This document shows positions 5,861 through 57,570 of a stretch of 57,729 bases of DNA, piece by piece; the stretch's first letter is position 1, and each line of letters starts with the position of its first letter. Both the position numbers and the translations under genes were made by a program. The stretch is from a virus. The notes beneath the pieces were generated by a model. That model was not told where the DNA came from. It saw only the letters and a list, made by a program, of their open reading frames with translations, and did not search any database. The DNA lies in IMG/VR virus record IMGVR_UViG_3300008261_000142, positions 1 to 57,729 of that record, one strand, 5' to 3'.

Positions 5861-8800
5861 ACTGGGTACAGAGTAAGCGAAGCCTTTTCAGAAGTATAGG
5901 CTCCCTTGACGTGTGTCACTTCGATGATCCACGAACTCATCGTCTCAAGTCCAAGGTCTCCGCGATAGAGATCAGACATCACCACTTCGTTCTCTTCAGT
6001 GGTGAACACGGAGATCTTGTTGAGGGTTGTGCCGTTGATCAGGGTGACTTGGAAGTACCCTTGGACACCGCTGGTGCCTACTGCGTTCCCGAGAGGCTGC
6101 ATGCCGAGCCCCGTGTTCGGGAACTCGTTGCTCTCGTAGCACCAAACGATCTTGAGCTGGCCCCCGTAGGACGGGTAGCTTGTCTTGAACGTCTCGAGGC
6201 GCAGCCCTCCCGGCTTCATGGGAGTGAAAGCCTTGGCAGAGATCGTCGTTGTCTTGGCGTCGATCGCAGTGATGTCCGAGCTTCGAAGCATCGAACCTGC
6301 CTGTCCCTTGTAGTAGACCTGTACGCCGGCTGCGTAGATGAGCGATTTGGTCCCCGTGAGCCGGTAGTAGGGCACCACGTAGAACGGCGTTCCTACAGGG
6401 TACGAGGCGGGAGAGGTGCCAAAGCGGCCTCGGATCATTCCGACCAGCTCGTCAGGGTACCCGTTCTTCAAGAAGATGATCTCGTTGCCGATCAGCAACA
6501 GCTGGCGACCAGAACGCCATGCAGCGGCATCCAGAGTGAGGTCCTCGATGACAGCTAGGTCGGGTTGGTAGTCAGCCAGGATGCTGACCGGCTGTTCGTA
6601 GATCATCTCCGTAGTAGCAGGCAGCTCCTCGGCGAGCGTCCCTCGCACAGCGAGGATGCCATCGCCGAGGAAGCTGTAGGCGGTTCCGTCCCTCGAACCC
6701 CAGATAGCCGATTTGACAATCTTGGAACTGGGTCGCGAGGTCAGGAAGGCCACAGAGATCTCCGAGCCAAACGGAATCTCGAAGGCTTGGAAGTCCAGCA
6801 AAGCAGGCACGATCTCCGTAGAGCTCGGGGACGTTACCGGGAGGTCGTCCAGGCCTGGCGTGCTGTCCGTAAACTCGAGGAGAGGCGGGTTGTAGGTATC
6901 GACCATGGCCTCGATCTCGATCTTGCTCGAGTTGACGAAGCGACGGACGTTCATGATCAGGAACTGAAGGCCCTCGCCCTCGAATTCGCTGACCTTGAAA
7001 CGAGAACCCGGCACGGCCATCTGGCAGCCGTGGTTCATTTCGAAGTTGAAGCTGGAGAGGTTGGTGAGCCCTTCCTGCTGCCGGCGAGGGGCAATTCGAG
7101 AAATCGAGTCTCGGTCCTTGGTGATCTCGATCGGGACTTTCTGAGCCCTCTGAGTCTCGTACTCGGAGATCTGTCCGCTGTCGATCACCTTGATCGGCAC
7201 CTCTCGGTAGTTGCGATCACGGTCCTTGTAGGTGAACGCGACAACGTCGATCGGGCGGTCGCCCTGGACTGCCGTCATCGACGGTTCTTTGAGTACCAAG
7301 TCCTTGGGGATATCGAGGCCGGTTGCCTCGTATCGGATCAGTCGGAACACGTACTTTCCGACCGACACATCCCAAGCGATCATCAAGCCGGCGTCTTGGA
7401 GGATGGGGGAGAGTGCGCTCTCCAAGCCCTCGCCATCGAAGATGGCAATGCTGCCTCGAATCTTTTCCTTCTGCATCTGCTCTGCAGCTGCTTCGATCGA
7501 TCTGGTGTCGAACTTGCTGCGGTCGCGACCTGCTCCGTACGGGAACTTGGCGAACAGCAGCTGATCAATCATGTGGATTGGATTGACACCGTCGGTGCCC
7601 GTAGTGCTGCAGGGGCTTACGTAGCAAAAAATGCTGGGAGACGTTATTGCTCCAGAAACTCCCGGAGATCTCAGTACAGGGATACTGATATTTGAGTATG
7701 TTTGCTTGATATATTCGTCCAAAACCTCAGGCCCCAAAAATACTTCTAGGCATCCGCGAGTAGAAAGCGTACCAGCACTGGTTTGATTTTGCGTAAACGA
7801 AGTGGAGCTGTCCTGCACTGCTTTAGCAATCCAAAAATACTTCCATACATTGTTTTGATAAAATAGCCCAGGAAGGCGTGTATAGTCTAGGCAGTAGATT
7901 CCAATGATGCCTCCAGCAAAAATAATCTGATTTAAAGCTTCAATTCTTTGATTTGTGGGTGTTGGAAGTATGTCTGACCAAAGAACTCGAGTGTTGCTAG
8001 CAGGAGCACCCTGGCCGGTGTCCATGCAAAGTCTGTCTAGGACAGTTAACTTTCTTTCTAACTGTGTGTAAGAATAGGCCGACAAAATCATGGCACTATC
8101 ATCGCTGCCAGTCCAAGAACTTACAGGCCCAAAATTGCCTCCATATAGATTTCCGGCAAATATAAACCCGTTATGCAAATAGCCTTTTCTAGAGATTGGA
8201 GAATTGTTAATAGTGTCGTCGTACCATTCTTTATAAGAGGGCTTAGACTTATCTCCAACTAGAGGCGTCTCGAACGCCGATGAGGTGATCTCGCTGTAGC
8301 AAGGACATGTCACCTCGTATTCGAGACGAGGCCAATTTCGAGACTGTCCAAGATTCTTGTCTTCCCAGACAATCTTTGTTGCTAGCGGAAAACGGGTATC
8401 GACCGGCAGGCCAGAGATCACTGGGTCGTCTCTGAATCCCCAGTAGATGCGGAACGTTCCCTCAGACTGGCTGCTTCCTTGAGCGTTCTGAAGCGTGATT
8501 GAAGATCCCGAAGGGTGGCTGCCTGGCGAGATGTCGCCGCTCCAGATCAACTCGCCGTTCTGCCAGATGGCCGATAGCTTTGATGCAGGGCCTACGCAGA
8601 GAGCATGCACAGCACGCTCCCAGATCTGAGGCGGCTCGGGAACACCGCCTCCGCCCTTTCCCAGCTCAGGTGGGGTGTCTACCCCACCCCCAAGATCGGT
8701 GAATGCGGTGGCGTCCTCGACCCACAGAAACACGGGACCCACACGCTCACGACCGATGACCAGAGGGATGTAGGCCCCCATGGTCGCGCTAGAGCCCAAG

Positions 8801-8913
8801 AAGTCATCTAGCGGAGCCGCCTTCGGCTTCTTCATCGACAGCAGCGTGCCCGCTGTCAGCAGAAGGGAGGCGATGGCGAGGTAGAGAGCGATTTCACCGC
8901 CGGTAGCTAGCAT
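5857..8913 (-). CDS. Tail hub/tip protein, gene-transfer-agent host-specificity type
   Basis: About 1,018 residues, starting at the ATG at 8913 (AAGGAG 11 bases upstream; a TTG at 8922 is less well placed). A membrane-like helix lies at the N-terminus, then beta-rich domains. The middle and end (for example FDTRSIEAAAEQMQ, ISRIAPRRQQEG, LLLIGNEIIFLKNG, LVGMIRGRFGT) fit the baseplate hub proteins that follow the NlpC/P60 gene in gene transfer agents and related siphophages. It should close the tail tip and carry the receptor-facing domains. Residues of roughly 215-435 are encoded by clearly more AT-rich DNA (about 7620-8270), suggesting an acquired or variable module. It overlaps both neighbours, as expected in a tail operon. 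Confidence 0.75.
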   Translation of the reverse strand: MLATGGEIALYLAIASLLLTAGTLLSMKKPKAAPLDDFLGSSATMGAYIPLVIGRERVGPVFLWVEDATAFTDLGGGVDTPPELGKGGGGVPEPPQIWERAVHALCVGPASKLSAIWQNGELIWSGDISPGSHPSGSSITLQNAQGSSQSEGTFRIYWGFRDDPVISGLPVDTRFPLATKIVWEDKNLGQSRNWPRLEYEVTCPCYSEITSSAFETPLVGDKSKPSYKEWYDDTINNSPISRKGYLHNGFIFAGNLYGGNFGPVSSWTGSDDSAMILSAYSYTQLERKLTVLDRLCMDTGQGAPASNTRVLWSDILPTPTNQRIEALNQIIFAGGIIGIYCLDYTRLPGLFYQNNVWKYFWIAKAVQDSSTSFTQNQTSAGTLSTRGCLEVFLGPEVLDEYIKQTYSNISIPVLRSPGVSGAITSPSIFCYVSPCSTTGTDGVNPIHMIDQLLFAKFPYGAGRDRSKFDTRSIEAAAEQMQKEKIRGSIAIFDGEGLESALSPILQDAGLMIAWDVSVGKYVFRLIRYEATGLDIPKDLVLKEPSMTAVQGDRPIDVVAFTYKDRDRNYREVPIKVIDSGQISEYETQRAQKVPIEITKDRDSISRIAPRRQQEGLTNLSSFNFEMNHGCQMAVPGSRFKVSEFEGEGLQFLIMNVRRFVNSSKIEIEAMVDTYNPPLLEFTDSTPGLDDLPVTSPSSTEIVPALLDFQAFEIPFGSEISVAFLTSRPSSKIVKSAIWGSRDGTAYSFLGDGILAVRGTLAEELPATTEMIYEQPVSILADYQPDLAVIEDLTLDAAAWRSGRQLLLIGNEIIFLKNGYPDELVGMIRGRFGTSPASYPVGTPFYVVPYYRLTGTKSLIYAAGVQVYYKGQAGSMLRSSDITAIDAKTTTISAKAFTPMKPGGLRLETFKTSYPSYGGQLKIVWCYESNEFPNTGLGMQPLGNAVGTSGVQGYFQVTLINGTTLNKISVFTTEENEVVMSDLYRGDLGLETMSSWIIEVTHVKGAYTSEKASLTLYPV

Positions 8914-38335: not shown

Positions 38336-40430
38336 TGTTTCCTTGGAATCTCTCGCGCAACAACTGCTGTTGACGAGCTGTGAGAAGGGTAGCTTGGGCT
38401 CCTGCACGAATCAATACTTCGCTTCCAAAAGTTGTGGGCATCGGGTTCCACGAAGCGATCAGTACCTTTCGAGGCGAGTTCATCGTCTCTCGAACGTAGA
38501 TCGCGTCGTTGAGGATGGCACCCAAGGCCATTCGATCATGGTCTGAACTAATCAGCGTGGTGATGACGACCTCATCAGCGGTCTGGCCCTTGCGGTGAGT
38601 GCGCCCGATGGCCTGCTCCATCGAGAGCTCGTTTACCGGCAGCTGCGCGAAGATCTGATCGGTCATGAACTGCAGATTCTTGCCGGTGCCGTGAGCAGCG
38701 ATCGAGCAGATCAGCACCTTCTTCTTGCACCGATCAGCCGCTCCTTCGGAGGTGAGAAAGTCGTTTGCCTGCTTTCCAGCAGGGCAGTGAACGACATCCA
38801 CGCCCGCAGCCGACAGCTTCTCGAACAGCCAATCGCCCATGACTTGGTGCCAGTACCACACGATGCCCTGATCGCGTTCCTTGGCCCAGCTGATCGCCTT
38901 CTGGATCTTGTAGTCGCAGACTCGCATCGGGACCGACTGCCGCTCAATCCGACCTTGGAAATCAGCAGACTCCTTGAGCCTCCAAGCGTCGTAGAGCACG
39001 GTGCCGACATCCCTAGAGCCGTGCTTAGCCATGCTGGAGCCGACCAGCATCGGCGTGTCCAGACCGGGGCGGTGAGGGTGCGACGAGAACCACTGCCGCA
39101 GGACCCGGTGGTACTCCTGCTGCAGGCGATGGTACTCCCTGCTACGGGCAAGAAGATCCTCGGCGAAGGCTACTGAGATGTTGCGGCTCTCGGAGACCTT
39201 CCCTGCATCAGGCCAGACCAAGGCGTTGTAGATGCCTGCCGTCAGCTCGTTGTTGCACTTCCAAACCTGCATGGCGTGATCGAGCTCGTCTCCGCTTGGA
39301 GACACCCAGTCGTTGTTTAGCCGGTCTAGAAGGCTGGTCAGGTTTGCGCCGCCTTCAGAGGCCATCCGGTCAGCTTGCAGGTTCTCGACAACAATCGAAG
39401 TGCCGAGCGCATCCGGCGGGGAGGACACGACGCCAGGCGATGTCAAAAGGCGATTCTGGAACGCATGACGGAAGCCAGGCACATCGAACTGCAGCTGAGT
39501 CGCCGGGAAGTTGTCGTTGCTCCAGTTGATCAGCGGGCGTAGCGGGCCTGCAGAAGTGCGAGGCTTGTGCCACTCTTCGGTGTTGGCTTGCTCGCTGTCC
39601 AAGGTCGCTGCCCACTCCTGCACCATGTTGGCTTCGAGAGGTACTGGAGCACCTTGGCCTAGCGACATCATCAGGAGGTGCGCGTAGTCGTTGAGCGACT
39701 TAGCAGTCATCGTTCCCGAAAGGCAGATGCACTTCGGGCGGTACTTGCGCCAGTAGGTGCGGATGCGCTTCGTGCGCGCCGAATCGCGGTTCTTCAGATG
39801 GTGCGCCTCGTCGAAGATCATCAGCTCGGGGCGGATCTTCTCCAAAAGCGTGTAGCTGTCCTGAGTGGAGAGCAGCGAGTACGGAATGATCCAGCACCCC
39901 CTGCGACCGCCTGCGAGCTCGAGCCGCCTAGCAGGGCTCTTCCCACCCATCTGGTAGAAGGAGGTCCCTAGAGGTACTCGGCGACGCGCCCAAGCGATGT
40001 CGTGGTTGACCAGCTGGCTATAGACCTGACTCGGCACGAAGAGGCAGATGCGCTGGATGCCCTGCTCGACAGCGATGCCGACGCAGCGCAGCGAAATCAG
40101 CGTCTTGCCGCCACCGACTTGAATCGGCGCGAATAGGCCACCAGTCTCGATGAAAAACTGCAGTGCCTCGACCTGCACACGCTGCAGACGGAAGCCGTCC
40201 TCGTAAGCCTGCTCTTTTACATGGACTCGTTGAAGAGCATCGACCTCGGCATCGCTGAGCGGCTCTGCGATGGGAAGAGAGCAGATGCGCCCGATCTCTG
40301 TCTGTTCTTGCGGGCGATCCTGCATGACTCGAGACACGACCCAATCCATGCCCTGAGCCGGAGGCGGCGTAGGGACAGCTTCAGACGGCGAAGAGCCTCT
40401 GGCAAGAATGGCGGCTACACGGGGATCCAT
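38325..40430 (-). CDS. SNF2-type helicase
   Basis: 701 residues of a superfamily 2 ATPase. Walker A is VGGGKT (105-110), DEAH box 207-210, motif III SGT (238-240), and near 605 SMEQAIGRTHRKGQ is the QxxGRxHRxGQ motif VI of SNF2-like enzymes. Insertions lengthen the region between the two RecA lobes. Such proteins in phages move along DNA during replication or recombination. It overlaps the methyltransferase end by 16 bases. Confidence 0.85.
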   Translation of the reverse strand: MDPRVAAILARGSSPSEAVPTPPPAQGMDWVVSRVMQDRPQEQTEIGRICSLPIAEPLSDAEVDALQRVHVKEQAYEDGFRLQRVQVEALQFFIETGGLFAPIQVGGGKTLISLRCVGIAVEQGIQRICLFVPSQVYSQLVNHDIAWARRRVPLGTSFYQMGGKSPARRLELAGGRRGCWIIPYSLLSTQDSYTLLEKIRPELMIFDEAHHLKNRDSARTKRIRTYWRKYRPKCICLSGTMTAKSLNDYAHLLMMSLGQGAPVPLEANMVQEWAATLDSEQANTEEWHKPRTSAGPLRPLINWSNDNFPATQLQFDVPGFRHAFQNRLLTSPGVVSSPPDALGTSIVVENLQADRMASEGGANLTSLLDRLNNDWVSPSGDELDHAMQVWKCNNELTAGIYNALVWPDAGKVSESRNISVAFAEDLLARSREYHRLQQEYHRVLRQWFSSHPHRPGLDTPMLVGSSMAKHGSRDVGTVLYDAWRLKESADFQGRIERQSVPMRVCDYKIQKAISWAKERDQGIVWYWHQVMGDWLFEKLSAAGVDVVHCPAGKQANDFLTSEGAADRCKKKVLICSIAAHGTGKNLQFMTDQIFAQLPVNELSMEQAIGRTHRKGQTADEVVITTLISSDHDRMALGAILNDAIYVRETMNSPRKVLIASWNPMPTTFGSEVLIRAGAQATLLTARQQQLLRERFQGNNEQ

Positions 40431-51910: not shown

Positions 51911-52230
51911 AGGTAGTGGAAGTTGCGGAAGAGTTTTCCGGCGCGTGAGATGGCATCCTTGCCATGGAACTCTCGCACCCAGAAGTACTCGTCGACCCAG
52001 ACAGGGCCGACTCCGTCGATGAAGGCGATGTCGTCGCGCTCGAACATGTCTTCGGTCTGCTCTTCAGCCGGGACAGGGTCGCAGAAACGGGCGTGGTACT
52101 CTTCCCACGCTTCTTCTACGGTGCCGCCGACCTGCAGAAGCATCGGGCCGAACTGGCAGCCTACTACGTAGGCCAGGTCGGTTCGGAAACGGCTGGAGAT
52201 CTGGAGGTCTTTGTTCAAGAGTTTTGGCAT
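51907..52230 (-). CDS. Small phage protein, unknown
   Basis: 107 residues, acidic, with QVGGTVEEAWEEYHARFCD, DDIAFIDGVGPVWVDEYFW and a basic end. Its end overlaps the next start (ATGA) and its own ATG overlaps the previous stop (TAATG). No function recognised. Confidence 0.6.
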   Translation of the reverse strand: MPKLLNKDLQISSRFRTDLAYVVGCQFGPMLLQVGGTVEEAWEEYHARFCDPVPAEEQTEDMFERDDIAFIDGVGPVWVDEYFWVREFHGKDAISRAGKLFRNFHYL

Positions 52231-52457
52231 TACTGCACCTTGAGGAAGGCTGTCTTTTGCAGCCGGCTGTAGCGGATGCGGATCGTCTTCATGCCGATCT
52301 GGGCAAGCTCATCGATGTTGATGTACTTGCCGGAAGGCGTCATGAAGTCCAGCTTCTTGTCGAGGTCCGCCTGGGCTTGCTTGATGGTCGTGTAGTCACG
52401 ACCGTAGGCAGGCACCAGAGGCTCGAGACCACGAAGGTCGATTTCGTAGATGCTCAT
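52230..52457 (-). CDS. Small protein downstream of ribozyme A
   Basis: 75 residues starting MSIYEIDLRGLEPLVPAYG; later KTIRIRYSRLQKTAFLKV. Its ATG follows directly after the last base of hammerhead A, so there is no classical leader; an AGGG in ribozyme stem II lies nine bases from the ATG. Function unknown. Confidence 0.6.
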   Translation of the reverse strand: MSIYEIDLRGLEPLVPAYGRDYTTIKQAQADLDKKLDFMTPSGKYINIDELAQIGMKTIRIRYSRLQKTAFLKVQ

Positions 52458-52510
52458 GCGGTTTCGCCCTGCTGGGGCTCATCAGGCACCGAGCTATACG
52501 GTGCGACCGC
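52458..52510 (-). ncRNA. Type III hammerhead ribozyme A
   Basis: Minus-strand RNA: stem III GCGG/CCGC; U then C17 (cleavage between 52505 and 52504); stem I GCACCG-loop UAUAGCU-CGGUGC; core CUGAUGA; stem II GCCC-CAGCA-GGGC; core GAAA. All pairs are perfect. It fills the whole space between the stop at 52511-52513 and the ATG at 52457. After cleavage the ribozyme stays on the downstream mRNA as a 5'-OH end. Confidence 0.9.
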
Positions 52511-52753
52511 TCAGGAGGACTTCTCAAGCTGATCGGCAAGGTTGGCGATCAGGCCAGAGACGCCCATCAAGTGGCTGGCGTACACAGGATCGTGCTCGTC
52601 GTGTGTGTTGGCCTCGTATTCGATGTGTTGTGCCAGCTCGATGAGTTGCTTGACCGCTACGTCAAGCTCCTCCGTGTTCAGGTACTTGCGGCTGAGGTGG
52701 AGCTGGAAGAACAAGCCCGATGGCTGCCCTGAAGGCGTCGATTGGTCGGTCAT
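52511..52753 (-). CDS. Small protein, unknown
   Basis: 80 residues from the ATG at 52753; helical second half (VKQLIELAQHIEYEAN, LIANLADQLEKSS). No SD is seen, and the start overlaps the next gene by 92 bases, so a later TTG start is possible. The stop touches hammerhead A directly. Confidence 0.5.
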   Translation of the reverse strand: MTDQSTPSGQPSGLFFQLHLSRKYLNTEELDVAVKQLIELAQHIEYEANTHDEHDPVYASHLMGVSGLIANLADQLEKSS

Positions 52754-52880
52754 AGAGTTCTGTGGTTGAAGGGAACTGGCTCTTGCGAGCCACGGTGATG
52801 ACACCGCGCCACTTGTCGCGGTCTGGGATCACCGCGACTCGGTAGTTGCCGATGGTGGCTTTGTAGACTAGCTCGGGCAT
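52662..52880 (-). CDS. Small protein, unknown
   Basis: 72 residues from the ATG at 52880, preceded by GGAGAG. Starts with a beta segment (MPELVYKATIGNYRVAVI) followed by RDKWRGVITVAR, and a Pro-rich end. No family. Confidence 0.5.
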   Translation of the reverse strand: MPELVYKATIGNYRVAVIPDRDKWRGVITVARKSQFPSTTELYDRPIDAFRAAIGLVLPAPPQPQVPEHGGA

Positions 52881-53098
52881 TCGAATGTCTCTCCGGTGAC
52901 GAAGTCTTGCGGATGGTCTCCGCAGTTGTCGCAGTAGAAGCACTCTTCAAAGTCTGCGAGCGAGCATGCTTCCATGAAGCCGGATTGCCAGCCGTCCCTG
53001 CGGACGAGCTGGAGATCGACGTACATGAAGGCCTTTTGCCGCAACACGCTGTTGCAGCTAGCACAAAGGTAGTGCTGAACTCGGTTTTGTGGGTCCAT
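52868..53098 (-). CDS. Zinc-ribbon protein
   Basis: 76 residues from the ATG at 53098, overlapping the stop upstream (TGATG). CASC at 12-15 and CDNC at 56-59, with further Cys, suggest zinc binding. It overlaps the next gene by 13 bases. Nucleic acid binding is the probable role. Confidence 0.65.
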   Translation of the reverse strand: MDPQNRVQHYLCASCNSVLRQKAFMYVDLQLVRRDGWQSGFMEACSLADFEECFYCDNCGDHPQDFVTGETFECPS

Positions 53099-53262
53099 CA
53101 GGGAGTCCTGAGAACGATCTCGCAGATCGGTTCGTGGAGCCTGCAGATCCATAGGTAGCCGTGCTGTCCTTCCTTGGAGTTCTCGGCCTCTTCGACCGAG
53201 TCGAATGGTCCGACGAAGTCGAAGCCTGAGCCGATGTCTCCCATCACTAGTAGGTACTTCAT
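53098..53262 (-). CDS. Overlooked 54-residue protein
   Basis: The ORF is shorter than common gene-finder limits. ATG 53262-53260 overlaps the upstream stop (ATGA) and its own stop overlaps the next ATG (TGATG), so it is embedded in a coupled gene chain. It contains DFVGPFDSVEEAENSKE and QHGYLWICRLHEPICEIVL, a strand-helix-strand pattern. No family recognised. Confidence 0.65.
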   Translation of the reverse strand: MKYLLVMGDIGSGFDFVGPFDSVEEAENSKEGQHGYLWICRLHEPICEIVLRTP

Positions 53263-53951
53263 GCGTGTTGTAGTTCATCGTGGTCGATGAACTCGATGGG
53301 GAGTTCGACGGACCAGCAGAGACCGCAAGTCAGACACGACTCGGTCTTGCCGGTTTGCTCGGGGCAGGTCACAGCACCGGGGACGGATCCCTGCGTGGTT
53401 GCGACGATCTGACCCTTGATGCGCTTGTTGGTGCTGAAGCGCACCCACCAGCGGTCAGGGAAGTCTTTTCGCATGTCGGTGAGGCACTTCCAGCCCTCAC
53501 GGGCGGTGTAGCCGTAGACATGCAGGTTGGTGTGTCGAACGATCAGCTTGCGCCACATCTTGACGTAGCCGTCGGAGTAGAAGTCGCCGAGGATGTGCAG
53601 GCGCACAGCGAAGCCGTGCGGATGCATCCGTGCGAGCTCGGCAACTTCGCTTTGGATCTTGGCCTCGAGTTCGGGGCCATGTTGGAACCGATGTGCGAAC
53701 GGCATTGAGTTGCCGTAGCACTCGGCCCATCTGAGGCAGGTAGACGGGCAGGTTGCTCGCTCTTCGAGCGTGATGCTGAAGAGTGGGAACCCGCGCCACC
53801 GACCCTTGAGGATGGTGCCCTTGCCCTTGCCGAGCTTGCTGTTGTTCGCAACCGGCTTGAGGACATCGCGGCTGTCATCGACAGTGCGACGGCCCTTCGG
53901 ATGGATCGTGCGAGCTTCGGCCAGAGCAGGGTTGCCTGGCTTGAGTTTCAT
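53259..53951 (-). CDS. Conserved Cys-rich phage protein
   Basis: 230 residues. Cys patterns include ATCPSTCLRWAECYG and, near the end, VTCPEQTGKTESCLTCGLCW; between them is RLHILGDFYSDGYVKMWRKL and an HVYGYTAR segment. I recall closely similar uncharacterised proteins in phages of Alphaproteobacteria. The cysteines may hold an iron-sulfur cluster or zinc. The ATG follows directly after hammerhead B. Enzymatic role unknown. Confidence 0.65.
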   Translation of the reverse strand: MKLKPGNPALAEARTIHPKGRRTVDDSRDVLKPVANNSKLGKGKGTILKGRWRGFPLFSITLEERATCPSTCLRWAECYGNSMPFAHRFQHGPELEAKIQSEVAELARMHPHGFAVRLHILGDFYSDGYVKMWRKLIVRHTNLHVYGYTAREGWKCLTDMRKDFPDRWWVRFSTNKRIKGQIVATTQGSVPGAVTCPEQTGKTESCLTCGLCWSVELPIEFIDHDELQHA

Positions 53952-54004
53952 GCGGTTTCGCCCTGCTGGGGCTCATCAGTCGGCGCGATATACGCCGAGA
54001 CCGC
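53952..54004 (-). ncRNA. Type III hammerhead ribozyme B
   Basis: Stem III GCGG/CCGC; U-C17 with cleavage between 53999 and 53998; stem I UCGGCG-loop UAUAUCG-CGCCGA; core CUGAUGA; stem II GCCC-CAGCA-GGGC; GAAA. Stem I differs from copy A at several pairs, each compensated. It fills the gap from the stop at 54005-54007 to the ATG at 53951. Confidence 0.9.
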
Positions 54005-54211
54005 TCAGTCATCACGCTCGATGCCAGTGAACTCTACAGATTCACGATCGAGCTCTTCGGATATGCTGACTGTTTCGGGGAAGATCATCTCTTCATGGAT
54101 GATCTTTCTTGCCTGTTCAAGAGTCAGGTTCGGGTTGTCGTGCTCGAAAGAATATTCGAGCTCTTCCCACACCCTGACTACGCGGCTGCCGTAGACGGTG
54201 TACTTGGGCAT
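54005..54211 (-). CDS. Small acidic protein
   Basis: 68 residues from the ATG at 54211, which overlaps the previous stop (TGATG). YTVYGSRVVRVWEELEYSF then NLTLEQARKIIHEEM and acidic end. A common small phage fold; no function known. The stop touches hammerhead B. Confidence 0.6.
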   Translation of the reverse strand: MPKYTVYGSRVVRVWEELEYSFEHDNPNLTLEQARKIIHEEMIFPETVSISEELDRESVEFTGIERDD

Positions 54212-54420
54212 CAGCAGGCATCCTCCTCGGGCTGTCGTGAAGTGCTGTGGCGAGCGTGGCAATCGCGGAAGAACTGCGAGGACTTGCGGTAGATGTCCCT
54301 GAGCAGATCGACCGATTCCTTGTCTGCGATCAGGTACATCGTTTCCAGAGCAGCCCAGGCTGCGTTGGACAGAGCGATGCTCTGCTGGTACGCGATGGCG
54401 TACTTGGTCTTGTTTTCCAT
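54211..54420 (-). CDS. Small helical protein downstream of ribozyme C
   Basis: 69 residues from the ATG at 54420 (a longer frame runs into the ribozyme). Helical: AIAYQQSIALSNAAWAALET, DKESVDLLRDIYRKS, then CHARH. No family. Two bases separate the ATG from stem III of hammerhead C. Confidence 0.6.
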   Translation of the reverse strand: MENKTKYAIAYQQSIALSNAAWAALETMYLIADKESVDLLRDIYRKSSQFFRDCHARHSTSRQPEEDAC

Positions 54421-54422
54421 GT

Positions 54423-54475
54423 TCGGTTTCGCCCTTCTGGGGCTCATCAGCCGGCGGACTTTACGCCGGGACCGA
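54423..54475 (-). ncRNA. Type III hammerhead ribozyme C
   Basis: Stem III UCGG/CCGA, changed from GCGG/CCGC with compensation; U-C17, cleavage between 54470 and 54469; stem I CCGGCG-loop UAAAGUC-CGCCGG, again compensated; core CUGAUGA; stem II GCCC-CAGAA-GGGC; GAAA. The 3' end is two bases before the ATG at 54420. The stop of the small gene upstream lies within its stem I loop. Confidence 0.9.
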
Positions 54476-54580
54476 GCACTGGTCCGCGCCGCAGTTGCGG
54501 CAACGGAACCAGTGCAGGTTGCCGAGCTGCCCTAGGAAGAACAGTTCGCCGTAGCAGTGCTTGCAGGTGTCAGGAGTCAT
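54461..54580 (-). CDS. 39-residue zinc-ribbon protein ending inside a ribozyme
   Basis: From the ATG at 54580 to TAA 54463-54461. It has CKHC at 6-9 and CRNC at 27-30, a classic small zinc ribbon. The last codons (TGC TCG GTC CCG GCG TAA) are also the 5' part of hammerhead C, and the predicted cut falls exactly after the GTC codon, upstream of the stop. So a self-cleaved mRNA would have no stop codon. The start overlaps the previous gene by 11 bases; no SD is seen. Confidence 0.5.
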   Translation of the reverse strand: MTPDTCKHCYGELFFLGQLGNLHWFRCRNCGADQCSVPA

Positions 54581-54887
54581 GTCGCACTGCTACGTGGACG
54601 TACTTGGCACCTGGCCGTACTTGCTCGCCCTTCCACACCACGGTGTGCGGGGAGTAGTTGTACGAATCGGTCATGCCATCGAACGACCCGTAGGAGTAGT
54701 CGTTCATCAGGTCACGCCAGAACTCCAGCGGCCTGCTCCGATAGGTCTCGAGGTCCACTTCGATGTAGACGCTCGAACCCATGGAGTAGGTGCTGGAACG
54801 GACGGACAGCGGCTTGATGCCGCTGTCCTTGAGATACGACCGGATCGCCTTGGCGGTCTCAGTCGTACTGAGCATTGTAACAGTCAT
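54570..54887 (-). CDS. LPD29-like protein
   Basis: 105 residues from the ATG at 54887 with GAGGA upstream. The pattern TAKAIRSYLKDSGIKPLSVRSSTYSMGSSVYIEVDL...GSFDGMTDSYNYS matches the LPD29 type found in phages and polyvalent proteins (RTALKAAFPG..FSVRS..YSGGSSI..FDGM). LPD domains often act in anti-restriction or are delivered with DNA; the exact function is unknown. Confidence 0.6.
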   Translation of the reverse strand: MTVTMLSTTETAKAIRSYLKDSGIKPLSVRSSTYSMGSSVYIEVDLETYRSRPLEFWRDLMNDYSYGSFDGMTDSYNYSPHTVVWKGEQVRPGAKYVHVAVRHDS

Positions 54888-55086
54888 GTTCCTCTTCGAT
54901 GATGTCCACCAGACCGGCGATGAGCAGTTGCTCGTTGCCGTAGACCGCGTTCGCACCGCAGGTCTCGCACTTGTACTTTCGAGCATCGGGCTCAACTGCG
55001 AACGCTTGCGCGCCGCAGTTGATGCAATGCCCTTCGTTGCTGTCGAACAGTTCGTGTTCGTACAGCTTGAAGCGTTTCTTGATCAT
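54859..55086 (-). CDS. Zinc-ribbon protein
   Basis: 75 residues. CINC at 21-24 and CETC at 40-43 make a zinc ribbon; EEEHDC at the end. It overlaps the next gene by 29 bases. Typical for small phage regulators; the target is unknown. Confidence 0.65.
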   Translation of the reverse strand: MIKKRFKLYEHELFDSNEGHCINCGAQAFAVEPDARKYKCETCGANAVYGNEQLLIAGLVDIIEEEHDCYNAQYD

Positions 55087-55094
55087 GCTGTTGA

Positions 55095-55763
55095 TCAGTA
55101 GAACAACTCCCTGATCGCATCGGACGGAGTGTCCGACTCGAGGTGGAGTCTGTAGTTGAGCGGATCGTTGATCCCGGCAGGCGGGAACGTGATCAGCTTG
55201 AAGCTCACCGTACGATCGACCGGGTACATCCAGGTTTGGTGAAGCGGCGGTCGTTCGTACTCGGGCAAGTTTGCCGGCTCGCTGGCTCGGACCACTTTGC
55301 GGTAGCCGATCTTGGCGAGCGGGTAGAGGTGCTCGGGAATGATCAGGGACAGCAACAGAATCCTGCTGCCAGCCTTGACGAACCAGTTGAGCGTGGCCGG
55401 GAGGATCGGGTCATTCACTTCGATGTAGACCGGACCAACCCTTTCGGTGGGCCGGACCATCGAGGTGTACAACTCACCGAGACCCCCGATCGGGCACAGC
55501 AAGCTGTGCTGGAACAGCTGGATTGGCTCAGCCGGCAGTCGCGTTTCGGCGATCGCCAGCATGTGCGAAGGCTGAAGATTCCGCCCGAAGCCGACGGTGA
55601 ACTGGTAGCCGCAACCCTTGTAGCCCGAACCAATGTTCGCGCTCGTGGTCAGCCACTCAGGACAGCCGGCATCGATCAGATCGTCAGACACTTCGATGCG
55701 CTGATCGAGCTGCTCCCTTTCGCGCGCTTGCCGAGCAAGCAGATCGCGCATCAGGTGATGCAT
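55095..55763 (-). CDS. Hypothetical phage protein
   Basis: 222 residues. After a helical start (AREREQLDQRIEVSDDLIDA), beta segments such as YQFTVGFGRNLQPSHMLAIA and WFVKAGSRILLLSLIIPEHLYPL follow; no catalytic motif. GGAG lies seven bases before the ATG, and a perfect 8-bp hairpin lies upstream. Confidence 0.55.
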   Translation of the reverse strand: MHHLMRDLLARQAREREQLDQRIEVSDDLIDAGCPEWLTTSANIGSGYKGCGYQFTVGFGRNLQPSHMLAIAETRLPAEPIQLFQHSLLCPIGGLGELYTSMVRPTERVGPVYIEVNDPILPATLNWFVKAGSRILLLSLIIPEHLYPLAKIGYRKVVRASEPANLPEYERPPLHQTWMYPVDRTVSFKLITFPPAGINDPLNYRLHLESDTPSDAIRELFY

Positions 55764-55781
55764 AGGTACTCCTAGTGTAGC

Positions 55782-55804
55782 GAGCCGCCCAAAGTAGGCG
55801 GCTC
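55782..55804. other. Hairpin between two genes
   Basis: GAGCCGCC-loop-GGCGGCTC, perfect eight-pair stem with loop of seven. It follows the gene 55822-56196 and precedes the ribosome-binding site of 55095-55763. There is no U tract, so it is more likely an RNA processing or pausing structure than a terminator. Confidence 0.5.
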
Positions 55805-55821
55805 CCTTGCTAGGCGCACCC

Positions 55822-56196
55822 CTAGAAGAGCATCAGTTGACCCGGATGGTCAACCGGTCGCACGACCCACTCTAGGTGAGCCGTGGTTGCCCAGTCGATC
55901 GAGTGTGCCAGGTCGGCAATCTCGTGCAACAAACCGCACTGCTTGCAGCGGTCTCTTGCGACACGGATTTCTGACAGCTTCTCAGCCAGCTGGTCAGAAC
56001 CGTCTTGATTCAGTTGCCAGACGACGGCGGTCTCGCCGCTGTCGAGCACTATTGTTCGGTATTCGAGTTTGCTCCACTTGCCGATCTCGTCAGCTTGTGA
56101 CGAATAGCCGGTGGGAAAAACTAGAAATGCCGAACAATAATACGAGCCGTGGAAGGCGTGACGCCATTCCAGGTCGAGGATTATTTTTTCGGTCAT
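55822..56196 (-). CDS. Hypothetical phage protein, first of a gene string
   Basis: 124 residues beginning TEKIILDLEWRHAFHGSYY; CKQC near 84-87 and later HEIADLAHSIDW. No family recognised. The small palindrome TACGGT-GGT-ACCGTA (56202-56216) lies just before its ATG, covering the normal position of the ribosome site, so it may be an operator or RNA switch. Confidence 0.5.
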   Translation of the reverse strand: MTEKIILDLEWRHAFHGSYYCSAFLVFPTGYSSQADEIGKWSKLEYRTIVLDSGETAVVWQLNQDGSDQLAEKLSEIRVARDRCKQCGLLHEIADLAHSIDWATTAHLEWVVRPVDHPGQLMLF

Positions 56197-56859
56197 GAGA
56201 GTACGGTGGTACCGTAGCAGTCTCCATGCGAGTCGTTTTTGGCGAGCTCGCAGGATCGTCTAGGATCGACGATGGGGTAGGGGGGGCTATGGTGGGCCGT
56301 CCCTGTTGCCGATCGTCGATCCTAGCCAATGCCAGGCCGTCTACAAGACAGCCTTATGGAGGGATTCGAGTCGGTTGTTGCTGTTCGCAGAGGATTATTT
56401 GCCTTTGCGGGCAGAAACCGTTTTTCATTGCCGTTCGGTAAGCCCTTGTGAAACCTGGCTTTGTGAGAGTCAGGTCGAAAAAGGGCACTTTTGGCAAAAA
56501 TCCGTTACGCGAGGAGACATTTTTTGTGGAGAAATCCTCACATTTCCTCTTTTCAGTCGGAAATGTTTGTGCCTTTTACGGCAACCCCACCAAAAACATC
56601 TCCCGCGTAAGGGGGATTTGGGCACCTCTTATTTTCATTTTCGAAGAAATCGATGCAAACCCCACGGTTTACAAGGACTTACGACGAGCAATAAAAAAGG
56701 GGTACTTCCAAAAATCGATCGGCCTTTGTTTACAAGGACTTACGTCAAAAGTAGGGAAATCTTCTTTGCCCGAAAAGGTAAATGAAACCCTGGGCAATAA
56801 CTAACTTCCAGTACTCTCGGTTCGGTCCCCGTTAGGGTCCTCGATTTGCGAAAGAGTAG
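56197..56859. other. Non-coding region with inverted and direct repeats
   Basis: No convincing gene in this AT-richer stretch; two plus-strand ORFs (56306-56785, 56448-56804) lack codon bias, family likeness and ribosome sites. It contains a 14-bp perfect inverted repeat, CTAGGATCGACGAT at 56260-56273 and its inverse at 56312-56325, with a G-rich loop. It also has two copies of GTTTACAAGGACTTACG (56667-56683, 56728-56744), 61 bases apart, probably regulator binding sites or promoters. The small-gene operon may start from here. Confidence 0.5.
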
Positions 56860-56918
56860 CTTTCGGAAAAACTAAGTATGTCACCTAGTTTTTCCGAAAG
56901 CCGCTCCTTTTAGAGCGG
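56860..56918. terminator. Long hairpin pair downstream of gene 56927-57136
   Basis: A perfect 15-pair inverted repeat, CTTTCGGAAAAACTA (56860-56874) and TAGTTTTTCCGAAAG (56886-56900), and directly beside it CCGCTC-CTTTTA-GAGCGG (56901-56918). The pair lies eight bases after the stop of 56927-57136, so it probably ends that transcript, working in either direction. U/A tracts lie within the stem rather than after it. Confidence 0.5.
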
Positions 56919-56926
56919 TCGATCAG

Positions 56927-57136
56927 TCAGTCCTTCGGATTGACAGCGAACAATCGCTGGTCAACGTGGTCCATGAGGGACAGGATCTTGTCCTGCGCGT
57001 TGAAGAGGTCCTTGCGGATTTGGGAGACCTGGTCCACGAAATCGGAAGTCGACGGGCATGGCGTGACCATGATCGTCAGCTTCTGGATCGTGACCAGGTC
57101 GTCGTGCAGCATTTGCTGCAGTCGGATCGGGGTCAT
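56927..57136 (-). CDS. Small helical protein downstream of ribozyme D
   Basis: 69 residues from the ATG at 57136. The sequence AAGGAG lies eight bases before it and directly after hammerhead D. TPIRLQQMLHDDLVTIQKL then VDQVSQIRKDLFNAQDKIL make it helical. Function unknown. A longer frame to 57214 runs across the ribozyme. Confidence 0.6.
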   Translation of the reverse strand: MTPIRLQQMLHDDLVTIQKLTIMVTPCPSTSDFVDQVSQIRKDLFNAQDKILSLMDHVDQRLFAVNPKD

Positions 57137-57150
57137 GTCTCTGTCTCCTT

Positions 57151-57205
57151 GCGGTTTCGTCCTTGGCTGGGACTCGTCAGTACGTGGCACCACCACGTAG
57201 ACCGC
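57151..57205 (-). ncRNA. Type III hammerhead ribozyme D
   Basis: Stem III GCGG/CCGC; U-C17, cleavage between 57200 and 57199; stem I UACGUGG-loop UGGUG-CCACGUA (seven pairs); core CUGACGA, the permitted variant; stem II GUCC-CAGCCAA-GGAC; GAAA. Stems I and II both differ from copies A-C with full compensation. It lies between the stop of 57214-57486 and the SD of 56927-57136. Confidence 0.9.
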
Positions 57206-57507: not shown

Positions 57508-57570
57508 CCAGTCCTCGGACCAGTCCTCCGTGCAGTCCTCGCGGCAGTCCTCCTGGGCGAAGTGCCCAGG
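57508..57570. repeat. Four 12-bp repeats and an adjoining hairpin
   Basis: CCAGTCCTCGGA-like units at 57508, 57520, 57532 and 57544 share CAGTCCTC with a 12-base period. The perfect inverted repeat CCTGGGC-GAAGT-GCCCAGG follows (57552-57570). TGTCGCAAA then occurs twice before the 57-bp repeats. Probably a regulator site for the leftward operon or part of the origin. Confidence 0.6.

Follow-up and report, generated by a model that had tools for sequence, protein, structure and literature searches.

Clusters of hammerhead ribozymes that flank genes within prophages were described by Perreault et al. (2011; PMC3088659), who proposed that the clusters process long transcripts. Three clusters were tested in vitro and one in E. 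coli: clustered hammerheads cleaved in vitro, and the A. tumefaciens cluster also cleaved in E. coli. In the haloviruses HF1 and HF2, a hammerhead lies 13 nt before the start codon of a helicase gene, and a mapped transcript 5' end lies no more than 3 nt from the cut (PMC3088659). The role of such elements was called open in a 2017 review (PMC6155905), and later work notes that neither the biological reason for the clustering of bacterial ribozymes nor their connection with Mu-like phages has yet been explained (PMC10085705). The locus analyzed here is a well-supported addition to this recurring, functionally unexplained pattern of hammerheads at phage gene starts.

The DNA analyzed (the window) is a virus record of 57,729 bases whose gene products include homologues of phage terminase, DNA polymerase, helicase, primase, and exonuclease; its source is a tailed-phage genome fragment. 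To locate hammerheads we used a stem-by-stem scan with four criteria, U-H at the cut, CUGANGA, GAAA, and three stems. The scan, carried out independently of an initial annotation that had reported four type III hammerheads, identified exactly four places, with the same intervals and the same predicted cuts as in that annotation:

52458 to 52510, minus strand: HHR1, type III hammerhead, predicted cut 52505/52504
53952 to 54004, minus strand: HHR2, type III hammerhead, predicted cut 53999/53998
54423 to 54475, minus strand: HHR3, type III hammerhead, predicted cut 54470/54469
57151 to 57205, minus strand: HHR4, type III hammerhead, predicted cut 57200/57199

They share the minus strand with a long run of genes and lie close to the right end of that run. 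Each copy contains U16.1-C17, CUGANGA, and GAAA, with all core residues present, and each has a stem III of 4 bp plus a U-A pair, a stem I of at least 6 bp, and a stem II of 4 bp, arranged as three helices in which loops close stems I and II and stem III is open. The window contains the core pattern CTGANGAG..CGAAAC 4 times, compared with 0.09 occurrences expected. In the four-copy alignment, 60 of 60 stem cells (100%) are paired, in agreement with the perfect pairing of three stems first reported for these copies, and sliding the partners by 1–3 columns reduces pairing to 29–50%. The compensatory changes between copies that had been pointed out are likewise borne out: two-sided changes are present in 7 of 15 pairs, a number that none of 500 shuffles reaches. 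HHR1 and HHR2 are near-duplicates (87% over 61 nt), and three pairs of stem I have changed on both sides between them, a pattern that points to selection on pairing. A covariation test on 46 sequences is partly circular, because the sequences had been picked for pairing, and the four-copy test is the fairer one. Minimum-free-energy folding reproduces the hammerhead for HHR1, HHR2, and HHR3; for HHR4 it yields an alternative, non-hammerhead fold, with the hammerhead pairing still available. We conclude that, as judged from sequence, identification of the four elements as genuine-looking type III hammerheads with compensatory evolution is well supported.

The four copies share topology, core, and stem sizes with Rfam model RF00008 (Hammerhead_3), but all score below its gathering score of 48.5 bits (range 22–47 bits), and a search of the window with Rfam at the gathering threshold returns zero hits. 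The individual scores are 46.7, 43.0, 37.2, and 22.2 bits (E = 4e-8, 5e-7, 2e-5, and 0.35). The initial annotation had proposed the Rfam type III model as a check, and the outcome is divided: three copies are clear matches, yet below gathering, whereas HHR4 is a weak match (22.2 bits, E = 0.35). Because all four score under the gathering cut-off, routine annotation would miss them. By contrast, a phage-hammerhead model with 46 training sequences (42 from other viral contigs plus these four) scores the copies at 65.8, 65.5, 64.1, and 56.5 bits (E = 1e-17 to 1e-14), and detects no fifth hammerhead in the window, where the next best place scores 12 bits. Across 12 viral loci (L011, L032, L093, L142, L150, L193, L238, L244, L254, L270, L289, and L305), Rfam at gathering reports one hammerhead, whereas the phage-specific model reports more than 30. 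The results indicate that current annotation misses most phage gene-start hammerheads.

The placement of the copies is defined by the following neighboring features:

52230 to 52457, minus strand: 75-aa ORF downstream of HHR1, without family match
53259 to 53951, minus strand: 230-aa GP88-like protein downstream of HHR2 (PF17338; phrog_2554)
54211 to 54420, minus strand: 69-aa ORF downstream of HHR3, without family match
54461 to 54580, minus strand: 39-aa ORF with CxxC...CxxC, zinc-ribbon-like by eye, ending inside HHR3
56197 to 56926, minus strand: noncoding gap of ~730 nt between the gene of HHR4 and the rest, with lower GC (down to 45%)
56927 to 57136, minus strand: 69-aa ORF downstream of HHR4, without family match

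Among the four directly downstream genes, only that of the GP88-like protein has a family match. HHR1 and HHR2 each constitute, to the base, the entire stop-to-start spacer: for HHR1, TGA at 52513–52511, ribozyme at 52510–52458, and ATG at 52457; for HHR2, TGA at 54007–54005, ribozyme at 54004–53952, and ATG at 53951. HHR3 has an ATG 2 nt downstream, at 54420, and its loop I contains the TAA (54463–54461) of the upstream 39-aa ORF; the TAA lies 3' of the predicted cut, and cleavage would therefore strip the upstream message of its stop codon. HHR4 is followed by AAGGAG and then by an ATG at 57136, 14 nt on.

Since clustered prophage hammerheads were reported in 2011, the arrangement is not new, and the window represents a further case of a described kind. 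As in the Perreault et al. clusters of Agrobacterium, Azorhizobium, and Clostridium scindens, several hammerheads lie close together on one strand of a phage genome (here four, on the minus strand), next to single genes or short gene blocks in phage-derived, here putative, operons; the role proposed, that long transcripts are processed, is also the same. The window differs from those clusters in that its four hammerheads are all type III and two of them fill a stop-to-start spacer exactly; in its accessible part, that report names neither this phage nor its genes. The window resembles the HF1/HF2 case in that a hammerhead lies shortly before the start codon of a gene (13 nt in the haloviruses); the HF1/HF2 element, however, has a variant core and occurs only once, in an archaeal virus, whereas the window has four copies with a canonical core. 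Judged by sequence position, what is distinctive here is the exact filling of two spacers and a predicted cut, in HHR3, that precedes the stop of the upstream gene.

To place the window among other viral contigs we used at least 333 loci, obtained by IMG/VR pattern scans plus one genome-contig match, with search patterns free of any start-codon requirement. The strict scan of these loci identified at least 115 hammerheads, at least 98 of them distinct, and identified none in the same sequences read backwards. Among the matches listed, 88 of 98 distinct hammerheads are followed, within 60 nt 3', by an ATG whose open frame either spans at least 40 codons or extends past the end of the contig, at a median distance of 20 nt; random positions on the same strand give 29, and the opposite strand gives 11. 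This orientation-specific placement favors a role in the 5' end of the downstream mRNA. A model search of whole records shows arrays of two to five hammerheads in many other, unrelated viral contigs: four each in G005, G022, G023, and G034, and, in an array larger than that of the window, five on one strand within 4.5 kb (L305, contig G054, 8491–12976). The near-exact zero-spacer layout of HHR1 and HHR2 was found, by pattern search, in no other viral contig. Two side observations concern cultured Pelagibacter phage HTVC142P, which has a hammerhead (48.8 bits) at 39624–39675 (L339 1979–2030), at the right end of the linear record, and HTVC031P, which has a similar sequence, detected by blastn, at its right end (L350 1501–1527).

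According to the hypothesis that we favor, the four copies are cis-acting type III hammerheads situated in the 5' leaders of tailed-phage genes that are small and probably early. Each copy would fold in the minus-strand transcript and make one cut after C17, between the 5' strand of stem III and stem I. Cleavage would leave a 2',3'-cyclic phosphate on the upstream mRNA and a 5'-OH on the downstream mRNA, in which the stem I hairpin, the core, and the stem II hairpin would lead up to the start codon. The likely net effect is that one polycistronic transcript would yield several shorter mRNAs, each with a defined and structured 5' end, and that expression of the flanking genes would be uncoupled. 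A processing role predicted in this way from sequence is the best explanation for the locus: cis-cleavage probably splits a polycistronic phage mRNA at chosen junctions and yields downstream messages with structured 5'-OH ends.

Several points stand against the processing reading: ribozymes are present at some gene junctions only, the predicted cut in HHR3 would remove an upstream stop, folding favors a non-hammerhead structure for HHR4, and some hammerheads that match the consensus lack activity in vitro (Perreault et al., 2011; PMC3088659). The predicted released unit from HHR3 to HHR2 is 471 nt and holds 2 genes, the unit from HHR2 to HHR1 is 1494 nt and holds about 5 genes, and many gene junctions, for example ATGA overlaps, have no ribozyme; ribozymes thus do not mark every gene, and the proposal that they separate successive genes was overstated. 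The assignment of all four copies to one operon also went too far. HHR1, HHR2, and HHR3 do sit in a tightly packed gene run, but HHR4 lies beyond the ~730-nt gap, which contains a near-perfect, terminator-like hairpin (56859–56901; 43 nt, 20 bp); a single transcript for all four is therefore at most putative, and HHR4 may belong to another transcription unit. The gap is possibly a regulatory or terminator region. Within it, the 17-nt sequence GTTTACAAGGACTTACG is directly repeated, with copies at 56667 and 56728.

The exact stop-ribozyme-start packing of HHR1 and HHR2, and the overlap of HHR3 with the upstream ORF, suggest a serious, if unlikely, rival: that the ribozyme acts mainly by competing with ribosomes and so gates translation or mRNA turnover. 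Ribosomes at the upstream stop or at the abutting AUG would unfold the ribozyme, and untranslated mRNAs would fold, be cut, and be degraded or lose expression. In HHR1 and HHR2 the 3' strand of stem II includes an SD-like AGGG whose distance from the AUG is usable; direct contact with an ATG is also seen for four ribozymes of other contigs (one in L032, two in L238, and one in L270); and loss of the stop codon of the upstream ORF upon cleavage of HHR3 would fit such competition. However, the stem II 3' strands are not more SD-like in abutting than in distant ribozymes (−4.4 vs. −3.9 kcal/mol, p = 0.26), folding predictions show no clear rise in SD and AUG accessibility after cleavage, and most phage hammerheads have an ordinary SD downstream. 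For the start-abutting subset (HHR1, HHR2, HHR3, and the ribozymes of L032, L238, and L270; 0–2 nt), it is conceivable, although we consider it quite improbable, that the ribozyme, as the whole leader with the only SD-like sequence in the 3' strand of stem II, would act as a translational switch, natural and ribozyme-based, in which the RNA could either fold for catalysis or bind the ribosome, but not both. The packing of HHR1 and HHR2 provides a clean construct for effects on translation and mRNA stability.

We also considered the embedded SD as a selected feature; this is unsupported by the comparison of abutting and distant ribozymes, and cleavage is not predicted to free the SD. L270 contains, in addition, a Pistol ribozyme at 8758–8824 (RF02679, 40.4 bits), ~2.7 kb from its start-abutting hammerhead.

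The stem III strands are identical in HHR1, HHR2, and HHR4, and full pairing of 5' and 3' strands between copies is present in 26% of within-array combinations vs. 8% of combinations between contigs. These observations fit a reading in which the copies would be sites of RNA joining: once two of them had been cut, the GCGGUC>p end of one copy would dock on the ACCGC of another, and ligation would yield circular or recombined mRNAs. We regard this as very improbable: the shared strands are explained by recent duplication, stem III differs between copies in most other arrays, and Perreault et al. (2011; PMC3088659) sought spliced or circular products and detected none. As a sign of circularization, interchangeability of stem III is weak, since duplication accounts for the sharing.

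That the copies are inert remnants or chance motifs is highly unlikely, for, although Perreault et al. (2011; PMC3088659) saw no in vitro activity in 4 of 18 hammerheads that conform to the consensus, the cores here are intact, the placement at gene starts is precise, and compensatory changes run across all four copies.

With respect to genome context, no close DNA match to the right-end 17.7 kb of the window was found among 50,697 phage records, and the DNA polymerase of the window has distant relatives only (26% identity), with none found in a search of viral contigs. Relatives of the GP88-like protein are encoded by L124 (44%), Sphingomonas phage Lucius, and Roseobacter phages, and, within the stretches searched, no hammerhead was found near them. 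At the right end of the window, repeats spaced 12 nt (CAGTCCTC...) lie immediately upstream of the first small gene (57509–57553), and the extreme contig end (57622–57729) contains two 51-nt copies of a sequence, 94% identical, with a 57-nt spacing and internal palindromes.
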